DNA of 64,000 bases from Capsulimonas corticalis (GTDB taxonomy: Bacteria; Armatimonadota; Armatimonadia; Armatimonadales; Capsulimonadaceae). A model generated the notes under the pieces. That model saw only the letters and a list, made by a program, of their open reading frames with translations. It did no database searches and was not told where the DNA came from. Positions 5,512 to 34,061 of this stretch are shown here, one piece after another. The stretch lies in NCBI RefSeq assembly GCF_003574315.2, contig NZ_AP025739.1, positions 5,146,001-5,210,000 of the forward strand. The letters run 5' to 3'. The number at the start of each line of letters is the position of its first letter. The stretch's first letter is position 1. Position numbers and translations under genes: made by a program.

Positions 5512-6594
5512 ATGGCGGAACACACGATTGTTGTCCTGGACGGTGACCAAACCGGCCAGGAGCTGTTACTGGAGGGCCTGCGTGTCCTCGAACCTTCCGT
5601 GATCCGCATGGATCTCGCATTTGAGCACTACGATTTGACGCTGGAGAATCGGCGCGCGACCAAAAATCAGGTCGTGCACGATGCGGCGGCGGCGATGAAG
5701 AAGTATGGCTTCGGCATCAAGGCGGCGACGATCACTCCGGATATCGCCGGCGATGTCGGTTCGCCGAATGCGATTTTGCGCGAAGAGATCGATGGCACGG
5801 TCATCGTCCGCACCGGCCGGCGTCTGCCGGGCGTCATGACCGTCGGCGGCGTCTCCGCCCCGATGTCCGTGGTGCGCATGGCCGTGGACGACGCCTACGG
5901 CGCGAAGGAGTGGCGCGAGGGGACCGGGTACGACGAGATCGCCTACCGCACCGAACACATCAACCGCGGCACCTGCCGAATGGTGGCCGAGTTCGCGTTC
6001 CGGCACGCGCAAAAGATGAATGCTAAGGTCTTCGGCGGCCCGAAATACACGGTGTCTCCTGTGTACGAAGGGATGTTCAAGGAAGAGATGGACGCCGCGT
6101 CGAAGAAATTCGGCTCCGTCCGCTACGAGCCGCAGCTCATCGACGCCACCTATGCGCTGCTGCTTGCCCGCGCCTCCGAGCCGCTTGTCATCCCCGCGCT
6201 TAATCGCGACGGCGACTGTCTGAGCGACCTGGTGCTGGCGTTCTACGGCTCTATCGCCGGCTCCGAATCGATCCTGCTGTCGTTTGACGAGAACTTTGAA
6301 CCTAAGGTCGTCATGTCCGAGGCGCCCCATGGCACCGCGCCGGCTCTGCAAGGCAAGAACATCGCGAACCCGCTGGCGATGATCCTCGCGGGCGCATCGC
6401 TCCTGTCCTTCCTGAAGAGCCCGGCCGCCACCCGCGCATCCCGCGCGGTCTACGAAGCGGCGTTTGAGGCGATCAACGACGGCGTTCGCACCGCGGATCT
6501 GCTCGGCCACGCCACGACCACGGAATTCACGGACAACGTGATCCATCGGGTACGGAACAAGGTTGAAGTTTGGGAGGCGATGGGGCAGAGCTAA
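5512..6594 (+). CDS. Isocitrate/isopropylmalate dehydrogenase family protein
   Basis: 360 residues. I chose the ATG at 5512 (GGGAG 5-9 bp upstream) rather than the TTG at 5500. It belongs to the NAD(P)-dependent decarboxylating dehydrogenases: DGDQTGQELL at the N-terminus, TPD and GSPNAILRE, RTGRRLPGV, the metal-site strand NRDGDCLSDLV (about 222-232) and the nucleotide-binding loop HGTAPALQGK followed by IANPLAM. Length fits IPMDH and short IDHs. It could be an isocitrate, isopropylmalate, homoisocitrate or tartrate-type enzyme. No leuA/leuCD neighbours are seen; the gene upstream is a sugar isomerase and a strong terminator follows, so this is the operon end. Confidence 0.8.
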   Translation: MAEHTIVVLDGDQTGQELLLEGLRVLEPSVIRMDLAFEHYDLTLENRRATKNQVVHDAAAAMKKYGFGIKAATITPDIAGDVGSPNAILREEIDGTVIVRTGRRLPGVMTVGGVSAPMSVVRMAVDDAYGAKEWREGTGYDEIAYRTEHINRGTCRMVAEFAFRHAQKMNAKVFGGPKYTVSPVYEGMFKEEMDAASKKFGSVRYEPQLIDATYALLLARASEPLVIPALNRDGDCLSDLVLAFYGSIAGSESILLSFDENFEPKVVMSEAPHGTAPALQGKNIANPLAMILAGASLLSFLKSPAATRASRAVYEAAFEAINDGVRTADLLGHATTTEFTDNVIHRVRNKVEVWEAMGQS

Positions 6595-6619
6595 TCTCGT
6601 CCTGCATCTCGATAAAAGC

Positions 6620-6653
6620 AATGGCCGTCGGTTAAAAACCGCCGGCCATTTTT
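6620..6653 (+). terminator. Rho-independent terminator
   Basis: The arms AATGGCCG and CGGCCATT (with inner CGGT/ACCG) enclose an A-rich loop and are followed by TTT. It ends the + strand run of genes before the convergent cysteine desulfurase. Confidence 0.8.
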
Positions 6654-6678
6654 CGTCGTTATTTTGTTGCGTTCACCT

Positions 6679-7827
6679 TCACACCCGCGTCAGGCGGGTG
6701 ATTAAGCGCGTCAGGATCTCCACCGTTTCCCGTATCTCCTCGTCAGTTGTTTCTCGTCCCAGCGTCAGGCGAAGCGCCGCGCCGCGCGCTTCCGAGGCCG
6801 CGCCAATCGCTGTCAGGACGTGGCTGGGCTCAATGCTTCCCGCCGTGCAGGCCGATCCCGACGACGCCGCGACGCCTGTGAGGTCCAGACTGACAAGAAG
6901 GGATTCGGCGTCGATGTCGGGGAATGAGAAATGGACATTTCCTGGAAGGCGCTGGGCCTGATGCCCGTTGAGCGCTGCGCCAGGAATGCGCTCACGGATC
7001 ATTCCGATCAGCAGATCACGCTGACGCTCCATTTGCTTCGCCGTCGTCTCGCGCTCGATGAGCATCAGACGCACGGCTTCTCCGAAACCGGCAATCGCCG
7101 CGACATTTTCGGTTCCCGCCCGTCGCTCCCGCTCCTGGCCGCCGCCATGGAGGAGGGGCTCGATGGGGATCCCATCTCGGACGTACAGCGCGCCGACGCC
7201 CTTGGGGCCATAAATCTTATGGGCGGAGACGGTGAGCAGGTCAACGCCAAGTTCGTGGACATTGAGCGGGTAGACGCCGTACGTCTGGACGGCGTCGGAG
7301 TGGAAGTACGTGTTGTGGCCGCGCAGCGCGCCGCCGATCTCCGCGATCGGCTGCACCGTACCGATCTCATTGTTTGCGTGCATGACGGAGACAAGCGTGG
7401 TCGTCGTTCTGATCGCTTCTAAGACCTGGCTTGCGGTGACCAATCCCTGGGCGTCTGGGGCGAGATATGTCGCTTCGAAACCGATCGTTTCTAAGAACCG
7501 CGCCGTGTGCAGCACCGCCTCATGTTCGATCTGAGTGGTGACAAAATGCTCGCCCCGCCGCCGATTCGCCAGTGTTACACCGAACAGCGCGGCGTTATCG
7601 GCCTCCGTTCCGCCACTGTTAAAGTTTATCTCAGAAAACTGTGCGCCGATAGACTCCGCGACAACCGCGCGGGCTTCATCGAGCGCCCGTTTCGCCCGCT
7701 GGCCTTCCGAATGCAGGCTGCTGGGATTGCCGAATCCGTCGCGCCCCAGAAAGGGCTCCATGGCTGCTTTCACTTCCGGGCGAATGGGGGTTGTGGCGGC
7801 GTGATCGAGATAAATTCGAGACTGCAT
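6679..7827 (-). CDS. Cysteine desulfurase (NifS/IscS-like)
   Basis: 382 residues; a PLP enzyme that removes sulfur from cysteine to form a persulfide for Fe-S clusters, thiamine or tRNA thiolation. The N-terminus IYLDHAATTP, the HEAV helix, SDAVQ, the PLP lysine K204 in SAHKIYGPKG and the active-site Cys327 in SGSACTAG are all in place. The short loop around Cys327 and SIEPSHVL fit the NifS/IscS group rather than SufS. The gene stands alone: no iscU or iscA lies beside it. A repeat-rich 185 bp stretch separates it from the upstream GH106 gene. Confidence 0.93.
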   Translation of the reverse strand: MQSRIYLDHAATTPIRPEVKAAMEPFLGRDGFGNPSSLHSEGQRAKRALDEARAVVAESIGAQFSEINFNSGGTEADNAALFGVTLANRRRGEHFVTTQIEHEAVLHTARFLETIGFEATYLAPDAQGLVTASQVLEAIRTTTTLVSVMHANNEIGTVQPIAEIGGALRGHNTYFHSDAVQTYGVYPLNVHELGVDLLTVSAHKIYGPKGVGALYVRDGIPIEPLLHGGGQERERRAGTENVAAIAGFGEAVRLMLIERETTAKQMERQRDLLIGMIRERIPGAALNGHQAQRLPGNVHFSFPDIDAESLLVSLDLTGVAASSGSACTAGSIEPSHVLTAIGAASEARGAALRLTLGRETTDEEIRETVEILTRLITRLTRV

Positions 7828-27900: not shown

Positions 27901-27920
27901 AATACCAAAATTAGCAGTTA

Positions 27921-28217
27921 AAGGCGTTGACGAAGAGGAGTACGCCGTAGCGGATCGCAGACAGAGACCTGGGGCAGCTGAGAACCGGGGCGTGAGGCGC
28001 GGCGGAAATGACTTTCGAGCTGGGTGGGGGAAAGGCCGTTTTGGCTGAGTAGTTCACTCCGGGGGGCTCCCGTGATTGGGCTAGGGTCGAAAGAGTGCGC
28101 TCATACGCGCATCACTTGCACCCGTCAAGGCGGCGCGCCGCGAGGAGCCCGCGAAACAAGGTGGTACCACGAAGGTGACAAATGCCTCTCGTCCTTGTGC
28201 AGGGGCGGGAGGCATTT
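27921..28217 (+). promoter_or_regulatory. T-box riboswitch (tRNA-sensing leader)
   Basis: Stem I shows the AGTA (27939-27942)/GAA (28005-28007) loop-E pair closed by CGCCG/CGGCG, and the distal AGAGA (27963-27967) and GCTGAGAACC motifs. The specifier loop after GAA reads ATGAC; ATG (Met) at 28008-28010 followed by A is the only sense reading near the expected place, one base earlier than standard spacing. The antiterminator is unmistakable: ACAAGG (28156-28161), bulge TGGTACC (28162-28168), ACG, then CGT and CCTTGT (28190-28198). It competes with a hairpin AAATGCCTC/GAGGCATTT (28180-28217), which lacks a long T run. TGGT in the bulge fits a tRNA with A73. Confidence 0.9.
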
Positions 28218-28244
28218 CGTGCTGAAATGCCTGTCGCCAAATTT

Positions 28245-28304: not shown

Positions 28305-29573
28305 ATGGCGAAAGTTTTAGGTTTGCGCTGCCGCGAATGCGGGCAGCAGTACGATAAGGCTCCGATTCACGTCTGCGAGCTGTGCTTCGGGCCGCTGGAA
28401 GTCCAGTACGATTTCACCGCCGGTCCTAAGATCACCCGTGAGCTGATCGAGGACGGCCCGCTGACGATGTGGCGCTACAAGGATCTGCTGCCGCTCGACG
28501 GCGAACCCACGGTCGGCAAGCACGTCGGCTATACCCCCCTGGTCAAGGCGGACAATCTGGCGAAGGCGCTCGGTCTGACCGGCGAAGTCTACGTCAAGAA
28601 CGATTCTGTCAGCCACCCAACCCTTTCCTTTAAGGACCGCGTTGTTGCGGTCGCGCTCTCCAAAGCGCGCGAGTTCGGATTCGATATCGTCGGCTGCGCC
28701 TCCACGGGGAACCTCGCGAACTCCGTCGCCGCCCACGCGGCCGAGGGAGGCTTCGAATCCTATATCTTTATTCCGCACGATCTGGAGCAGGGCAAGATCG
28801 TCGGCACCCTGATCTACGGCGCCAACGTCCTTTCCGTCCAGGGCAACTACGACGAAGTCAACCGCCTCTGCTCGGAAGTCGCCGGCAAGTATGGCTGGGG
28901 CCTGGCGAATGTGAACCTTCGCCCCTTCTATGGCGACGGCTCCAAGACCTTTGGCTATGAGATCGCCGAGCAGCTTGGCTGGCGCACCCCGCAGCATGTC
29001 GTCTGCCCATCGGCCGGCGGCTCGCTGGTCACCAAGATCTACAAGGCGTTCCAGGAGTTCCATAAGCTCGGTCTGATCGACGAAGTGCAGACGAAGATGT
29101 ACGTCGCGCAGGCGACGGGCTGCAATCCGATCTCCACCATGGTCAAGGAACAGACGGAGATCATGAAGCCGGTGCGGCCGAACACGATCGCCAAGTCCAT
29201 CGCGATCGGCAACCCGGCGGACGGCTACTACGCCGCCGAAACCTGCCGCAAGTCGGGGGGCTGGGCGGAAGACGTCACGGACGAAGAAGTGGTCGAGGGG
29301 ATTTCGCTGCTGGCGAAGACCGAAGGCATCTTCACCGAGACCGCCGGCGGCGTCACCGTCGCCGTCACGCGCAAGCTGATCGAGCAGGGCCGCATTCCGA
29401 AGGACGAGAGCGTCGTGATCTGTATCACCGGAAACGGCATGAAGACGATCGACGCCGTCGTTGGCAAAATCGGTCAGACGATCCCGATTTCGCCTTCGCT
29501 GGCGTCGCTGGAGATTGCGCTGTCGGAGCGCGGACTGGCCGCGAAGCCGGGCCGTCCGCTCGTCACTGCTTAA
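28305..29573 (+). CDS. thrC: Threonine synthase-like PLP enzyme
   Basis: 422 residues, ATG with AGGAGG 10 bp upstream. The N-terminal 30 residues form a zinc-ribbon-like knuckle (C9-x2-C12, C24-x2-C27). The PLP lysine is K110 in LSFKDR, followed by GCASTGNLANS (phosphate cradle) and PSAGGSLVTK. This is the family that converts O-phosphohomoserine to threonine. It heads a T-box operon with a HemQ-like protein, a MoaD/ThiS-like protein and a NIL protein, which are sulfur-linked rather than threonine-linked partners, and the T-box specifier looks like Met. It may therefore use O-phosphohomoserine (or a related ester) for homocysteine synthesis; this is inference. Confidence 0.85.
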   Translation: MAKVLGLRCRECGQQYDKAPIHVCELCFGPLEVQYDFTAGPKITRELIEDGPLTMWRYKDLLPLDGEPTVGKHVGYTPLVKADNLAKALGLTGEVYVKNDSVSHPTLSFKDRVVAVALSKAREFGFDIVGCASTGNLANSVAAHAAEGGFESYIFIPHDLEQGKIVGTLIYGANVLSVQGNYDEVNRLCSEVAGKYGWGLANVNLRPFYGDGSKTFGYEIAEQLGWRTPQHVVCPSAGGSLVTKIYKAFQEFHKLGLIDEVQTKMYVAQATGCNPISTMVKEQTEIMKPVRPNTIAKSIAIGNPADGYYAAETCRKSGGWAEDVTDEEVVEGISLLAKTEGIFTETAGGVTVAVTRKLIEQGRIPKDESVVICITGNGMKTIDAVVGKIGQTIPISPSLASLEIALSERGLAAKPGRPLVTA

Positions 29574-29587
29574 GAGAGAACGTACTT

Positions 29588-30310
29588 ATGGCAAATCTCG
29601 CCGCTGAGGAAAACGCGAAGCTGCCCCGGCAGTTCGTCAACTTCGCTTACTATAAACTGGATCCGGCCTATCTGCTGCTGGATGACGAGACGCGCAAGGC
29701 CGGCGTCGCGGAGCTAACGGAAGTCCTGAAGTCCTGGCAGAGCAAGATCCTGCTCTACCCGTACACCACGTTCGGCGTTCGCGCCGAAACGGACTTCCTG
29801 CTCTGGCGGATTTCGTATCATCTGGACGACTTCGAGAAGATGGCGACCGAGATGCGGCGCACGCATCTGGGCAAGTATCTTCAGACGCCGTACTCGTTCC
29901 TGGCGATGACCAAGACCAGCATCTATGTGGACGACCATGTCCATGAAGGGCAGGAAAGCGTCCGCAACCAGATCGTCATCGGCGGCGGCAAGTATCTCTT
30001 CGTCTACCCGTTCGTCAAGACCCGGCCATGGTATGTGCTGGACAAGGAAGAGCGCCAGCGCATCATGCGCCAGCATATCAAGTTCGGGCATGAGTTCCCG
30101 TCGGTCAAGCTGAACACCACATACTCGTTCGGCCTGGACGATCAGGACTTCGTGGTGGCGTTCGAGACCGACTATCCTGCGGACTTCCTGGATCTGGTGC
30201 AGGGCCTGCGCGAGACGGAATCCAGCCTGTTCACGCAGCGCGACACCCCGATCATCACCTGCACGCAGCAGGAGATCGGCGAGATGCTCGCGCATATCAG
30301 CGGCATTTAA
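29588..30310 (+). CDS. Chlorite dismutase-family (HemQ-like) protein
   Basis: 240 residues, 14 bp after the thrC-like stop. The family core is present: FLLWRISYHLDDFEKM, YPFVKTRPWYVL (the Tyr/Lys/Trp-Tyr stretch typical of HemQ), and MRQHIKFGHEFPSVK with the His that serves as proximal haem ligand, then NTTYSFGLDDQDFVVAFE and SLFTQRDTPI. HemQ decarboxylates coproheme III to haem b in monoderm and related bacteria. No other haem genes lie here. Its place between a threonine synthase-like gene and a sulfur carrier is odd and may mean a different job or a haem-dependent step. Confidence 0.82.
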   Translation: MANLAAEENAKLPRQFVNFAYYKLDPAYLLLDDETRKAGVAELTEVLKSWQSKILLYPYTTFGVRAETDFLLWRISYHLDDFEKMATEMRRTHLGKYLQTPYSFLAMTKTSIYVDDHVHEGQESVRNQIVIGGGKYLFVYPFVKTRPWYVLDKEERQRIMRQHIKFGHEFPSVKLNTTYSFGLDDQDFVVAFETDYPADFLDLVQGLRETESSLFTQRDTPIITCTQQEIGEMLAHISGI

Positions 30311-30369
30311 GTATTATTGGCGCGCGGCGATGGACGCCGCGAGATTTTATCAAGAGGAGTAATCATCAA

Positions 30370-30654
30370 ATGGCAGTCAGCGTATTGATTCCCACACCGC
30401 TTCGGGGTTTGACGGCGGACCAGGACACTGTGGAGACGCAAGAGGGAACGATTGCGGAGCTTATCCAGTCTCTGGAGAGCGAGTATCCCGGCATTGGCAA
30501 TCGTCTCAGTTCCGAAGACGGCGTGCTTCGCCGGTTCATCAACATCTATGTCAACGGCGAAGATATCCGGTTCCTTCAGGGCGCCGATACGCCGGTCAAG
30601 AACGGCGACGAAGTATCGATCGTACCGGCGATTGCCGGCGGGAAGGACTGTTAA
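30370..30654 (+). CDS. MoaD/ThiS family sulfur-carrier protein with C-terminal extension
   Basis: 94 residues; GAGGAG lies 9 bp before the ATG at 30370. Beta-grasp protein: VSVLIPTPLRGLT, IAELIQSLESEYPG, RRFINIYVNGEDIRFLQG and the strand GDEVSIVPAIAGG. In carriers the C-terminal Gly-Gly is adenylated and becomes a thiocarboxylate; here three residues (Lys-Asp-Cys) follow G90-G91, so it would need trimming first, as described for HcyS of Wolinella and QbsE. It directly abuts the NIL-domain gene (stop and ATG adjacent). A role as sulfur donor for homocysteine or cysteine synthesis is the best guess. Confidence 0.85.
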   Translation: MAVSVLIPTPLRGLTADQDTVETQEGTIAELIQSLESEYPGIGNRLSSEDGVLRRFINIYVNGEDIRFLQGADTPVKNGDEVSIVPAIAGGKDC

Positions 30655-30894
30655 ATGGCTGTCGAGCGCTTCAATCTGACATTCAATTCGCAAATGGCGA
30701 ACATGCCGATCATCTACAATATCGGTCAGAAGTTCCAGGTCGTCACGGTGATCGAACGCGCGAACATCTCTGAGGAAGCCGGCTGGGCGCAGGTCGCGTT
30801 CAACGGCACGGGCGAAGAGATTCAGCGCGCCATCGCGGACCTGAACACCATCGGCGTATTCGTTTCCCCTCTGGAGTTGGCGGTCGTCGCCTAA
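30655..30894 (+). CDS. NIL domain-containing small protein
   Basis: 79 residues, a single ferredoxin-like NIL domain (VERFNLTFNSQMANMPIIYNI, VTVIERANISEEAGWAQVAF, IQRAIADLNTIGVFVSPL, each shown in part). NIL domains bind methionine or related ligands at the end of MetN and occur in homocysteine-forming proteins of methanogens. The gene starts at the base after the sulfur-carrier stop, so translation is coupled. Terminator 21 bp downstream. It could sense methionine or act as a subunit of the sulfur transfer step. Confidence 0.8.
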   Translation: MAVERFNLTFNSQMANMPIIYNIGQKFQVVTVIERANISEEAGWAQVAFNGTGEEIQRAIADLNTIGVFVSPLELAVVA

Positions 30895-30914: not shown

Positions 30915-30953
30915 CGCCCTCCGGCCCCACTCGGGCCGGAGGGCGTCTTTTTT
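30915..30953. terminator. Bidirectional terminator
   Basis: CGCCCTCCGGCCC and GGGCCGGAGGGCG form a 13-bp stem; on the + strand TCTTTTTT follows. It separates the T-box operon from the convergent pilus gene, whose stop lies on its right edge. Confidence 0.88.
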
Positions 30954-32652
30954 ATGTCAGCATTCCCGTCACGCGCTGCCAGGAGAGCACGTCGTAGTGG
31001 TTTCCGGTCGTTGGGAAGAACGGCGGCGGGTGATCGGCGAGGCGGGTATCGTAATGGTACTGTTCTTGATAGCCGCTGGCGAGCGAGCCGTCGGAGTTCG
31101 CGTAGGCGAAGATACCGGACGATTGGGTGATGACGCCGCCGATGGATGTCATGGTTCCATTCGAGCTGGAGGAGGGGATCGACGGGTTCGCCGCGTCGAA
31201 CGTGGACGTCGCGAAGATATTCCCGTCGTACTCCAGGTTCGGTCCCGCCCCGCTTGCTACGGAGATATGGTGGCCTAAGAGGCCGAACACGCCGGCTTTC
31301 TGGTTGAAATTGGTGTCCGACGCCTGCGCGATGGACAGGTTTCGCGCCGTGTTATAAGTGATCGAACCGGTCAGCGTGACGTCTTTGGAGGCGGCGATAT
31401 CGGTCGCGATCGTCATTTGCGATCGATAGGTGATGTTGCCGGATGAATCGACTTTGTTGTCCGCGATCTGGCCGCTCAGTCCCGTGATATTCCCGTCGGA
31501 ATAGACCATGCCGTTCGGCGTGCCTGTGAGCGTGGTCATGGTGTGGACGCCGCTGACGCTCTTGTCGACCTTCGTCTGGTTGTTGCTTGGGTCGACCGTG
31601 ATCGTCTGAATGGTCGTTCCCTGAGTGACGGTGATGACCTGGTTGCCGCTGCCGTTGACGCTCAGGGCGACCACGCTGTTGCCGTGCAGGAAAATGCCGC
31701 CGGAGACGGTTCCCGAAGAGTTGACGATCGTGGCGCCGGCCGTTGTCGGCGTTCCCGCCGGCGCGGTGGTGCAGGGCGTCGGCGCCGGTAAGCCCATCGC
31801 GGCGTACTCCTGGGTATAGTCCGTGGTGGGAAGCGGGATTTGCGCCGAGTTCGGGATTTTTTTGCCGGAGCTATCGAGCAGGAAGTTGCCGTTGGCGTCC
31901 GTTTTATATCCCGTCGTCATACTCGGCTGCCCGCTCGTGGCGATACTTTTATAGTCGCTGATCGAGCTGGGGCTCGACACCACGCCGATGCTGTTCTTCC
32001 ACCATGTTACATTGCCCGAGACGGAAAACGCATCGTCGCCCGTGTACGTAAACATGGGGTTTGCCGTGTTATTGGACTTCCACAGGATGGTGGTTTGCAG
32101 ACCGTCCGCATCATTGGAGTGAAACGGCCCTTCGAAATGGTTGTTAAAGTCCCAAAATCCCGCGCCGTCGTTCACCGTGAAGTATGCGTACTTCCCGAAG
32201 CTCGCCTGCTGCACATAGACACGCACGGTCTGTGAGGCGCCGCTGGGCATCGTCGCCTGCGATTCGATCACATAATGTTTCTGCGTGCTCGTCGGATTGG
32301 TCGCATCGCCATCGATCCTCACCGTCAGAGTCGTTCCGGTCTGTCCAAACGGCGCCGTGATCGTTCCATTGGTGCCGTAGAAGTTTGTCATGGGGTGCAG
32401 GGCGTTGTCGTCCGGCGGGCTCGCCTGCTGCGTGAGCCAGGCGATGGCGAGGTCGACGCCGGAATCCGCCATGTTGAACGCTTCCGTGGTGTCGTTGCGG
32501 TGCTGCGACATTTGAATGGTCGCGCCGACCAGGGACACCAGACCCAGCGCCAGCGTGGACATGGCGAAGATCAGCACCAACGATGTCGCAAGAGCCGCGC
32601 CGCGCCGCCGGGAGGCGAGTCTTTTGAGCGTGATGGGTTGCAGAGTAGACAT
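30952..32652 (-). CDS. PilX-like type IV pilus assembly protein
   Basis: 566 residues. The N-terminus is RRRGAALATSLVLIFAMSTLALGLVSL, a class III-like hydrophobic helix as in PilX-type minor pilins, followed by a conserved Glu in NDTTEAFNMADSGVDLAIAWL. The rest is a large beta-rich region with YFTVNDGAGFWDFNNHFEGPFHSND and many Gly/Ser/Thr/Asn turns, a type seen in surface-exposed pilus proteins. It follows 18 bp after a PilW-like gene, so the three pilin genes form an operon. It could be a tip or adhesion component; not tested here. Confidence 0.7.
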   Translation of the reverse strand: MSTLQPITLKRLASRRRGAALATSLVLIFAMSTLALGLVSLVGATIQMSQHRNDTTEAFNMADSGVDLAIAWLTQQASPPDDNALHPMTNFYGTNGTITAPFGQTGTTLTVRIDGDATNPTSTQKHYVIESQATMPSGASQTVRVYVQQASFGKYAYFTVNDGAGFWDFNNHFEGPFHSNDADGLQTTILWKSNNTANPMFTYTGDDAFSVSGNVTWWKNSIGVVSSPSSISDYKSIATSGQPSMTTGYKTDANGNFLLDSSGKKIPNSAQIPLPTTDYTQEYAAMGLPAPTPCTTAPAGTPTTAGATIVNSSGTVSGGIFLHGNSVVALSVNGSGNQVITVTQGTTIQTITVDPSNNQTKVDKSVSGVHTMTTLTGTPNGMVYSDGNITGLSGQIADNKVDSSGNITYRSQMTIATDIAASKDVTLTGSITYNTARNLSIAQASDTNFNQKAGVFGLLGHHISVASGAGPNLEYDGNIFATSTFDAANPSIPSSSSNGTMTSIGGVITQSSGIFAYANSDGSLASGYQEQYHYDTRLADHPPPFFPTTGNHYDVLSWQRVTGMLT

Positions 32653-32670
32653 TGCCGGAGTTCTTTCTCG

Positions 32671-33456
32671 TTAGTACTGCGTGCGTCCATGAGCGCCGTT
32701 GGATGTGACGCCGAATGGATTGTGATCGCGCAGGTAAACGCACTCGCCCGTGAGCTGCGTCACATTCCCATTCGCCGCATCCGACGACGTGTAACCATGG
32801 ATGGGATCGTAGTAGGAGCTGACGATTTTGATCTTCACTTCATTCGCAATGGGCGTCACGCCGTCCGGCATATACGGCTGGATAAATTGGACGGCGTTGG
32901 GCAAGGGCGCGACGGATTTGATAATCGCGCGATTGACGGCTTGCCCTTGATCGATCCCGTTCTCCCAGAGGCACGTGCCGGTATTAGGGTTGGGCGTGCC
33001 GTTAGTGTTGGAGCGGTAGTAGTTCAGACTGACGCCGTCGTTTTTGACGTCCCAAAGGCTCGTACCGCCCGTGAGCGCCTGCGCCGATCCTCCCGAGGTC
33101 AGCTTCACGGATGTGGACGAGTTCGCCGCCGGCATGACGATATGGATCCCCGTGACGGCCACGTAGTTTCCCGTACTGTCGACGGCGTCATAGGTCGTGC
33201 CGTAAGTTCCCCCGTCCATGAGGGCGAATGAGCGCGCCTCGCGCAGATCATCCGAAACGGACTGGATGCCTCGGGCGGCGTCCAGCGAGGAGCTAGAAGC
33301 ACCGTTGACGCTCGCGCACAATCGGAGCATGGTGATAAACAGCGACATGACGCCCAGCATCAGCAGCGAGAACACCCCCATGCCGATCATGATCTCGACG
33401 AGGGTGAATCCGCGCGATTTGGAAAGTCCGCCGTTCCGCATGGTGTCAAATCTCAT
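32671..33456 (-). CDS. PilW-like minor prepilin
   Basis: 261 residues. The frame is open to 33960 but overlaps the upstream gene; the ATG at 33456 gives a proper prepilin leader (MRFDTMRNGGLSKSRG|FTLVEIM), cleaved by PilD before Phe, with Glu at +5. The following hydrophobic helix is IGMGVFSLLMLGVMSLF. The globular part is polar with few charges. It starts 17 bp after the PilV-like gene. In known pili PilV, PilW and PilX form the tip complex. Confidence 0.78.
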   Translation of the reverse strand: MRFDTMRNGGLSKSRGFTLVEIMIGMGVFSLLMLGVMSLFITMLRLCASVNGASSSSLDAARGIQSVSDDLREARSFALMDGGTYGTTYDAVDSTGNYVAVTGIHIVMPAANSSTSVKLTSGGSAQALTGGTSLWDVKNDGVSLNYYRSNTNGTPNPNTGTCLWENGIDQGQAVNRAIIKSVAPLPNAVQFIQPYMPDGVTPIANEVKIKIVSSYYDPIHGYTSSDAANGNVTQLTGECVYLRDHNPFGVTSNGAHGRTQY

Positions 33457-33473
33457 AACGTTGCCTTGCGCCG

Positions 33474-33983
33474 CTATCGAGCCGCGATGATCGTATGCGT
33501 GGTAAAGTTTCCGGAGCTCTGGCTGCCGCCTTGCCATGCGATGGTGACCGTGGCTTGAACGGCCTGCGCGAGCGTGGGCGCGTTCGAGCCGGTAGATGTC
33601 AGCGCCTGGCTGATCCATATCTTGCCGGTGCTGCCAGGCGGGAAATACCCGACGGAATTGCCGTTGTCGATCAGGTCGTCGACAACAGTGAACGAAAACG
33701 AGCCGTCCGAATTTTGCGTCGCCGAGTCGACAACGCCGCGTCCGTACAGCGCCGAGCCGTTCATTCCCGTAAAGCCCAGATCGCGCAATTGATCGATCTT
33801 CTGCTGGGCCAGCAGGGACGCCTGCGCGTAGTTGGCGCCGACATGGCCGGCGCGCGTGGCGACCGGGAAAGTCGCCCCAAACAGCAGCACCATCATTCCA
33901 AAAACGAACAGAGAGATCGCCAGCTCCACGAGGGTGAAGCCGCCGTTTCGTCGCATCCATGTTTTCTGGCGTGAGTGATTCAT
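33474..33983 (-). CDS. PilV-like minor prepilin
   Basis: 169 residues from the ATG at 33983 (a TTG at 34004 would add seven residues). Leader MNHSRQKTWMRRNGG|FTLVELAISLFVFGMMVLLFG with the PilD site and Glu +5. The body has QASLLAQQKIDQLRDLGFTGM, the segment typical of PilV/type IV pilus modification proteins. First gene of the pilV-pilW-pilX-like operon, downstream of a DUF2723 glycosyltransferase gene on the same strand. Confidence 0.78.
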   Translation of the reverse strand: MNHSRQKTWMRRNGGFTLVELAISLFVFGMMVLLFGATFPVATRAGHVGANYAQASLLAQQKIDQLRDLGFTGMNGSALYGRGVVDSATQNSDGSFSFTVVDDLIDNGNSVGYFPPGSTGKIWISQALTSTGSNAPTLAQAVQATVTIAWQGGSQSSGNFTTHTIIAAR

Positions 33984-34061
33984 GTGTCTGCTTTCTGATA
34001 ACAATGCTTACTTGGAATTATGCCGTTATTAGGGCGCGGCGGTATCCGTAAAGATAAGTGT

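Follow-up and report, generated by a model that had tools for sequence, protein, structure and literature searches.

Organization of the locus

A 64,000-nucleotide (nt) stretch of the Capsulimonas corticalis genome (phylum Armatimonadota; contig NZ_AP025739.1, positions 5,146,001 to 5,210,000; hereafter the window) was analyzed for a four-gene cluster, metM-hemQ-metO-NIL, which is a candidate operon for methionine biosynthesis. The genome consisted of a single contig of 7.65 Mb. The four open reading frames (ORFs) were confirmed as open and collinear on the plus strand, with intergenic gaps of 14, 59, and 0 nt and a third-position GC of 0.68 to 0.83, and the Pfam matches of the four proteins all exceeded the curated cut-offs (Table 1). 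A preliminary description, made from the sequence alone, had placed genes of these four families in one operon under a T-box with a methionine-like specifier; the ORFs lay where it had placed them, the specifier was AUG, and the T-box itself was located just outside the stretch that the description covered.

Table 1. Features of the metM operon and its leader (positions in the window).
Feature	Position	Strand	Evidence
T-box leader RNA, Met specifier AUG at 28008-28010	27918..28199	+	RF00230, 78.2 bits, E 2.6e-17
Antiterminator T-box sequence GGTGGTACCACG	28160-28171	+	part of T-box leader
Competing terminator-like hairpin of T-box	28180..28218	+	55-nt stretch containing the hairpin folds at -28.2 kcal/mol
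metM, predicted MetM-type homocysteine synthase dependent on pyridoxal phosphate (PLP)	28305..29573	+	PF00291 (PALP) 226 bits; TIGR00260 282 bits
hemQ-like, putative coproheme decarboxylase, Chlor_dismutase family	29588..30310	+	PF06778 188.8 bits
metO, ThiS/CysO-like sulfur carrier	30370..30654	+	PF02597 (ThiS) 73.5 bits
Stand-alone NIL-domain protein	30655..30894	+	PF09383 34.9 bits
Probable operon terminator: GC-rich inverted repeat with a trailing T run	30915..30953	+	by-eye sequence reading

Relationship of MetM to threonine synthase

The metM product passed the threonine synthase model TIGR00260 (282 bits against a cut-off of 167), so a thrC label would be expected for it. A tree of 37 rows was constructed from 35 of the 55 collected rows (duplicates and further MetM rows were omitted) and two haloarchaeal thrC sequences. 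The window enzyme and 28 others formed a MetM group of 29 rows, which was split from eight ThrC-type rows with a support of 100 in the Shimodaira-Hasegawa-like approximate likelihood ratio test (SH-aLRT); in this comparison of the PLP enzyme with true ThrC, which the preliminary description had proposed, the two types fell into separate groups. The ThrC-type rows included the second ThrC of the C. corticalis genome and the metM-adjoining genes of two Nitrospirota metagenome-assembled genomes (MAGs). In these MAGs (L088 and L090), the ThrC-type gene lay just downstream of metM and metO, and the two types therefore coexist as separate genes in one place. Before any counts, G053 and G192 (2 of 54 phylum genomes) were excluded, the sole match to the MetM query in each being 34-35% identical and grouping with the ThrC-type rows; G191 retained one MetM and one ThrC-type match.

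Eight PALP proteins above cut-off were found in the C. corticalis genome. L005 was a canonical threonine synthase (TIGR00260, 303 bits), L003 and L007 scored as cysteine synthases, and L001 and L004 scored as threonine ammonia-lyases; by eye, L002 and L008 were like a further ammonia-lyase and TrpB. The situation that the preliminary description had named as contrary to its proposal, a sole thrC together with a separate homocysteine pathway, was not found: a second, canonical thrC was present, and neither a PF01053 enzyme (E <= 1e-40) nor HcyBio was matched in the genome.

In the 2024 work of Hasebe, metO is said to adjoin metM in Streptomyces albulus, and thiocarboxylated MetO is said to be the sulfur donor. 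A passage of PMC12172450 describes the S. albulus metM as having a SAM (S-adenosylmethionine) riboswitch and a metO gene, and its product as turning phosphohomoserine into homocysteine. The S. albulus MetM sequence was not in the tree, where a Nonomuraea protein served as a stand-in. This homologue showed 49% identity with 99% of the window MetM query covered; its gene had an S-box riboswitch upstream and was immediately followed by a gene for a carrier of 91 residues with a Gly-Gly terminus, and therefore matched the layout reported for S. albulus metM-metO. Judged from its sequence, the ThrC-like enzyme of the window most likely belongs to the MetM type and makes homocysteine.

The methionine T-box

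The window T-box scored below the Rfam gathering threshold of 93 for RF00230; for this reason, a default Rfam scan of the window returned no T-box, and a targeted E-value scan recovered it. The T run of its hairpin was short, so attenuation in this genome may be inefficient or work differently. A T-box was found upstream of metM in 26 of 30 Armatimonadota loci (the window, 15 of 16, and 10 of 13). The four loci without a match were L063 and L072 (one family), in which about 1.5 kb of upstream DNA was scanned, L058 (327 nt scanned), and L075 (1 nt scanned). Beyond the 30 loci, a T-box of 40.4 bits was present in G106, and no match was obtained at G045 or L087.

The specifier column read AUG in all 16 aligned T-boxes. 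Overall, the specifier was AUG in 27 of 27 T-boxes (the 26 loci and G106), 25 of which were located by a pattern expecting AUG and two (L065 and L071) by eye. The Rfam gathering score was reached by just 7 of the 27. An S-box riboswitch was found before metM in L086 and L089, two of the seven loci of one scan. A search of the open-access literature found no paper combining T-box, Armatimonadetes, and methionine, although such absence is no proof of novelty. The thrC genes of Bacillota are described in a section of PMC12452182 as being under tandem T-boxes, an arrangement unlike that of the metM operon.

The MetO carrier and its activation

The metO gene shared the operon with metM in C. corticalis and lay inside the metM flank in 27 of the 30 Armatimonadota loci. 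The window MetO matched the ubiquitin-like ThiS family, and its best PDB relatives were 4n6e_B and then 3dwg_C, the latter of which we take to be CysO. The protein ended in AIAGG-KDC, with three residues past the Gly-Gly, so trimming must be assumed. Among 38 distinct MetO homologues, 18 ended exactly at Gly-Gly, 18 had one to five extra residues, and two were fusions, one running on into E1-rhodanese and one into NIL.

Carrier-activation genes were found elsewhere in the genome at locus L102, where a JAMM gene (5874-6308; Prok-JAB 105.9 bits) directly preceded a ThiS-ThiF-rhodanese fusion gene (6328-7809; ThiF 273, Rhodanese 68.8, and ThiS 44.3 bits). These two genes would supply the trimming, adenylation, and sulfur loading of MetO. 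In Wolinella, a comparable trimming of the carrier is carried out by a metalloprotease. The carrier part of the L102 fusion would itself have to be cleaved at its internal Gly-Gly, and it may pair with the CysM-like L007 of the same genome.

Other homocysteine routes in the genome

A search of the genome for metB, metY, and metZ had been recommended in the preliminary description. No match to PF01053 (the MetB/MetC/MetY/MetZ family) at E <= 1e-40 was obtained in the C. corticalis genome; five partial matches of at most 31.5 bits were found, three of them slightly over the Pfam cut-off of 27, and the proteins concerned read like other PLP enzymes. HcyBio (PF01837) also had no match in this genome, and the same search was positive in 3 of 14 control genomes. 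The co-occurrence of metM, PF01053, and hemQ was investigated in 201 Armatimonadota genomes, 52 of which had metM. Contrary to expectation, metM did not neatly take the place of PF01053 enzymes in the phylum (Fisher p 0.083).

The NIL protein

The window NIL protein had no cysteine and matched the NIL family alone. Its AlphaFold model had a predicted local distance difference test (pLDDT) score of 81, and all ten Foldseek matches at E <= 0.001 were MetN or other ATP-binding cassette (ABC) transporter ATPase C-terminal domains. The predicted fold is of the MetN C2 type, and on this model the protein is probably a methionine-sensing subunit. By tblastn, NIL was found in 24 of the 30 metM loci; L022 added a 25th genome, the metM locus of which was cut short. 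No NIL match was found in the flanks of the metM loci of Nonomuraea, L086, L088, and L093. In an Armatimonadetes MAG (L087:6305-6805), MetO and NIL were joined in one 167-residue protein.

HemQ and heme synthesis

Besides the window HemQ, which scored under the NCBIfam cut-offs (126.5 of 235 bits), no Chlor_dismutase protein was found in the genome. Residues Y140 and H163 of this HemQ, which we take to be the catalytic Tyr and proximal His of a coproheme decarboxylase, aligned with Y135 and H158 of Corynebacterium diphtheriae ChdC (numbering offset derived from the W183Y mutant entry) and were invariant in 30 of 30 HemQ rows, duplicate loci and identical rows having been omitted from the HemQ tree.

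Conservation of the four-gene order, a further check named in the preliminary description, was seen in all seven sampled genomes of the window's family (five genera; one metM cut by a contig end); outside this family the order did not hold, and the core was metM-metO-NIL without hemQ. Within the family and outside the genus, HemQ was 58-67% identical versus 78-89% for MetM. Thirty other genomes had both hemQ and metM. The two genes were less than 10 kb apart in G106, where metM was readable in several frames, and in G045, where they were convergent and close; in G022 they shared a contig but were widely separated, and in the other 27 genomes they were on separate contigs. Overall, hemQ was present in 37 of 52 metM genomes versus 28 of 149 genomes without metM, shared ancestry not being removed from this comparison. 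In three relatives from the same order, hemQ was succeeded by a gene for a small Cys-rich protein and further on by NIL; in one of the three, metO intervened. The Cys-rich protein was found after hemQ in the sister family (L027:1179-1589, L028:2201-2446, L030:1227-1595, and L109:4203-4376); the L028 copy had no Pfam match, and the Cys spacing presumably resembles that of a thioredoxin-like [2Fe-2S] ferredoxin.

Ferrochelatase was not found in the C. corticalis genome. Across the 201 phylum genomes, ferrochelatase (E <= 1e-10) was found in 28 and AhbA/B-type PF17805 (E <= 1e-5) in 84, never together, and HemQ occurred with either. Among the 65 HemQ genomes, ferrochelatase was present in 26, PF17805 in 33, both in none, and neither in six. 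C. corticalis was of the HemQ and PF17805 kind, with two AhbAB-like fusions that were both below the NCBIfam cut-offs. No protein of this genome exceeded the cut-off for AhbC (TIGR04546), a strict model that was passed in only 1 of 14 controls. Two weak TIGR04546 matches were rejected as AhbC; by eye, one was MoaA-like and one resembled another radical SAM protein. In G071, hemQ was flanked by hemL-like and hemH-like genes, and in G100 and G124, hemH lay beside hemQ by coordinates. HemQ proteins with a C-terminal Rieske [2Fe-2S] domain were observed beside a ferrochelatase gene in L038 of G071 (63 bits; a hemL-like gene also adjoining) and in L035 of G124 (domain recognized by eye).

A review (PMC7242693) assigns the final reaction of the coproporphyrin pathway to AhbD in some organisms and to HemQ in others. 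From its sequence features, the window HemQ would most likely be a conventional coproheme decarboxylase, recruited to the operon in the family ancestor. The preliminary description had suggested it as the new element of the pathway; it is a poor candidate for this part because it is the sole copy, keeps the Tyr and His, and adjoins metM in one family only, with a loose linkage in 2 of 30 other genomes.

Proposed pathway and alternative explanations

With the four genes, the AUG T-box, the split of MetM from ThrC, the second ThrC, and the carrier-activation genes in place, the operon is very probably a methionine-biosynthesis operon of the MetM/MetO type, its catalysis being predicted. In the mechanism that we infer, uncharged tRNA-Met would bind the T-box and transcription would proceed into metM-hemQ-metO-NIL. 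The residues beyond the Gly-Gly of MetO would be removed, with the JAMM protease from locus L102 as the probable agent, after which adenylation and thiocarboxylation would probably fall to the carrier-E1-rhodanese fusion whose gene adjoins the JAMM gene. MetM would draw O-phosphohomoserine from the threonine branch and replace its phosphate by the sulfur of the MetO thiocarboxylate, and the homocysteine formed would pass to methionine synthase. The NIL protein would act as a free-standing, MetN-C2-like methionine sensor, probably damping MetM or MetO at high methionine, and the HemQ-like protein would be a coproheme decarboxylase passenger acquired by the family ancestor. A conversion of phosphohomoserine and carrier-bound sulfur into homocysteine under methionine control had been put forward in the preliminary description, and the MetM grouping, the carrier gene, and the T-box lend support to it.

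Several observations weigh against this assignment. The MetM score was over the threonine synthase cut-off, and a passage of PMC12172450 describes a cyanobacterial MetM-like protein, encoded beside a metO-like gene, as mainly a threonine synthase and deaminase that did not raise methionine. The MetM tree was a quick search with SH-aLRT support only and a program warning of long branches meeting. Five of the seven metM loci in the S-box scan had neither a T-box nor an S-box, the f2 loci L066, L073, and L074 had a T-box and metM with no metO or NIL match in the flank, and a PF01053 enzyme (E <= 1e-40) was also present in 30 of the 52 metM genomes, 22 being without it. The model score and the reported cyanobacterial activity would fit an ordinary second threonine synthase, in which case the carrier and NIL would serve other ends and the methionine T-box would be incidental. 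This is very improbable: a canonical ThrC is encoded elsewhere in the genome, the MetM group is separate with full support, metM is preceded by a methionine T-box at 26 of the 30 loci and by an S-box in three other lineages, and metO is close to metM in 27 of 30 loci.

We also think it quite unlikely that the HemQ-like protein contributes to the sulfur pathway, whether as a heme peroxidase oxidizing a sulfur donor or shielding the thiocarboxylate or otherwise. Its position between metM and metO in the seven family genomes, the hemQ-Cys-rich protein-NIL order in the three order relatives, the convergent pair in G045, the more frequent occurrence in metM genomes (shared ancestry not removed), and the lack of a ferrochelatase match in the genome would agree with such a role; its single copy with the conserved Tyr and His, the ferrochelatase genes adjoining its relatives in G071, G100, and G124, the metM-metO-NIL loci without hemQ, and its far lower conservation than MetM in the family argue for a passenger. 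For NIL, a function as a substrate or sulfur-transfer subunit, comparable to the NIL-ferredoxin of the DUF39 homocysteine route, is possible but doubtful. A NIL-ferredoxin is required for homocysteine in Methanosarcina and Desulfovibrio according to an excerpt of PMC5764234, and the single MetO-NIL fusion in L087 points the same way. However, the window NIL is cysteine-free and matches the NIL family only, the solved structures nearest to it in fold are C-terminal domains of MetN or MetN-like proteins, the DUF39 partner was not found in the genome, and four metM loci had no NIL match in their flanks; a methionine sensor is therefore preferred. A broader and unlikely reading is that, in this family, one Met-tRNA switch controls both homocysteine formation and the last heme step, with a divergent AhbC-type step feeding HemQ and NIL gating MetM as a soluble methionine sensor; if true, this joint control would be due to the S-adenosylmethionine cost of siroheme-route heme.

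Neighboring genes

On the minus strand of the window, at 30952-34004, three genes resembled minor pilin or PilX-like components. One had an N_methyl motif (28.7 bits), another had a PilX_N match under the cut-off, and the third was recognized by eye.

Comparison with known systems

In Wolinella succinogenes, homocysteine is made by a thiocarboxylate route that consists of HcyS, HcyD, HcyF, and MetY, with a metalloprotease, an E1-like enzyme, and acetylhomoserine. The C. corticalis system is predicted to share the protein-thiocarboxylate route, the metalloprotease, and the E1-like enzyme; unlike the Wolinella system, whose MetY belongs to PF01053, it has no convincing PF01053 match, and the activation genes lie outside the window operon. 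The mycobacterial CysO/CysM/Mec system shares the carrier family, a JAMM release enzyme, and the fold type of its PLP enzyme, but it yields cysteine from phosphoserine. The NIL protein resembled the MetN C2/NIL regulatory domain in predicted fold and PF09383 match and differed from it in being stand-alone, with no transporter. The HemQ-like protein resembled HemQ/ChdC in family and in the catalytic Tyr and His and differed in its genomic setting, in the ferrochelatase not found, and in its NCBIfam score under the cut-off. Unlike in the DUF39/NIL-ferredoxin pathway, HcyBio (PF01837) was not found in the genome.

The operon was like S. albulus MetM/MetO, as this is presented in a part of PMC12172450, in its ThrC-like PLP enzyme, its metO carrier gene, and its methionine-related riboregulation. 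It was unlike S. albulus in having a T-box instead of a SAM riboswitch, an additional NIL gene, hemQ between metM and metO, and a carrier with three residues after the Gly-Gly. Novelty of the route was not supported, MetM/MetO having already been published (Hasebe et al. 2024, doi 10.1128/aem.01247-24, as cited in a passage of PMC12172450). In the open-access papers searched, neither a methionine T-box before metM in Armatimonadota nor a stand-alone NIL protein was found, and papers that treat HemQ, threonine synthase, and NIL domains in pairs did not appear, by title and opening of the abstract, to concern this cluster. The core route is thus already known from Streptomyces; what sets the C. 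corticalis operon apart as a new variant of it is the T-box, NIL, the activation fusion, and the acquisition of hemQ at the family level.

Threonine synthase labels in public genomes may often conceal a homocysteine synthase, and a methionine T-box or SAM riboswitch, a carrier gene, and a NIL gene offer a means to tell homocysteine synthases from threonine synthases. A soluble NIL feedback sensor, if true, would represent a novel mode of control over a thiocarboxylate pathway.

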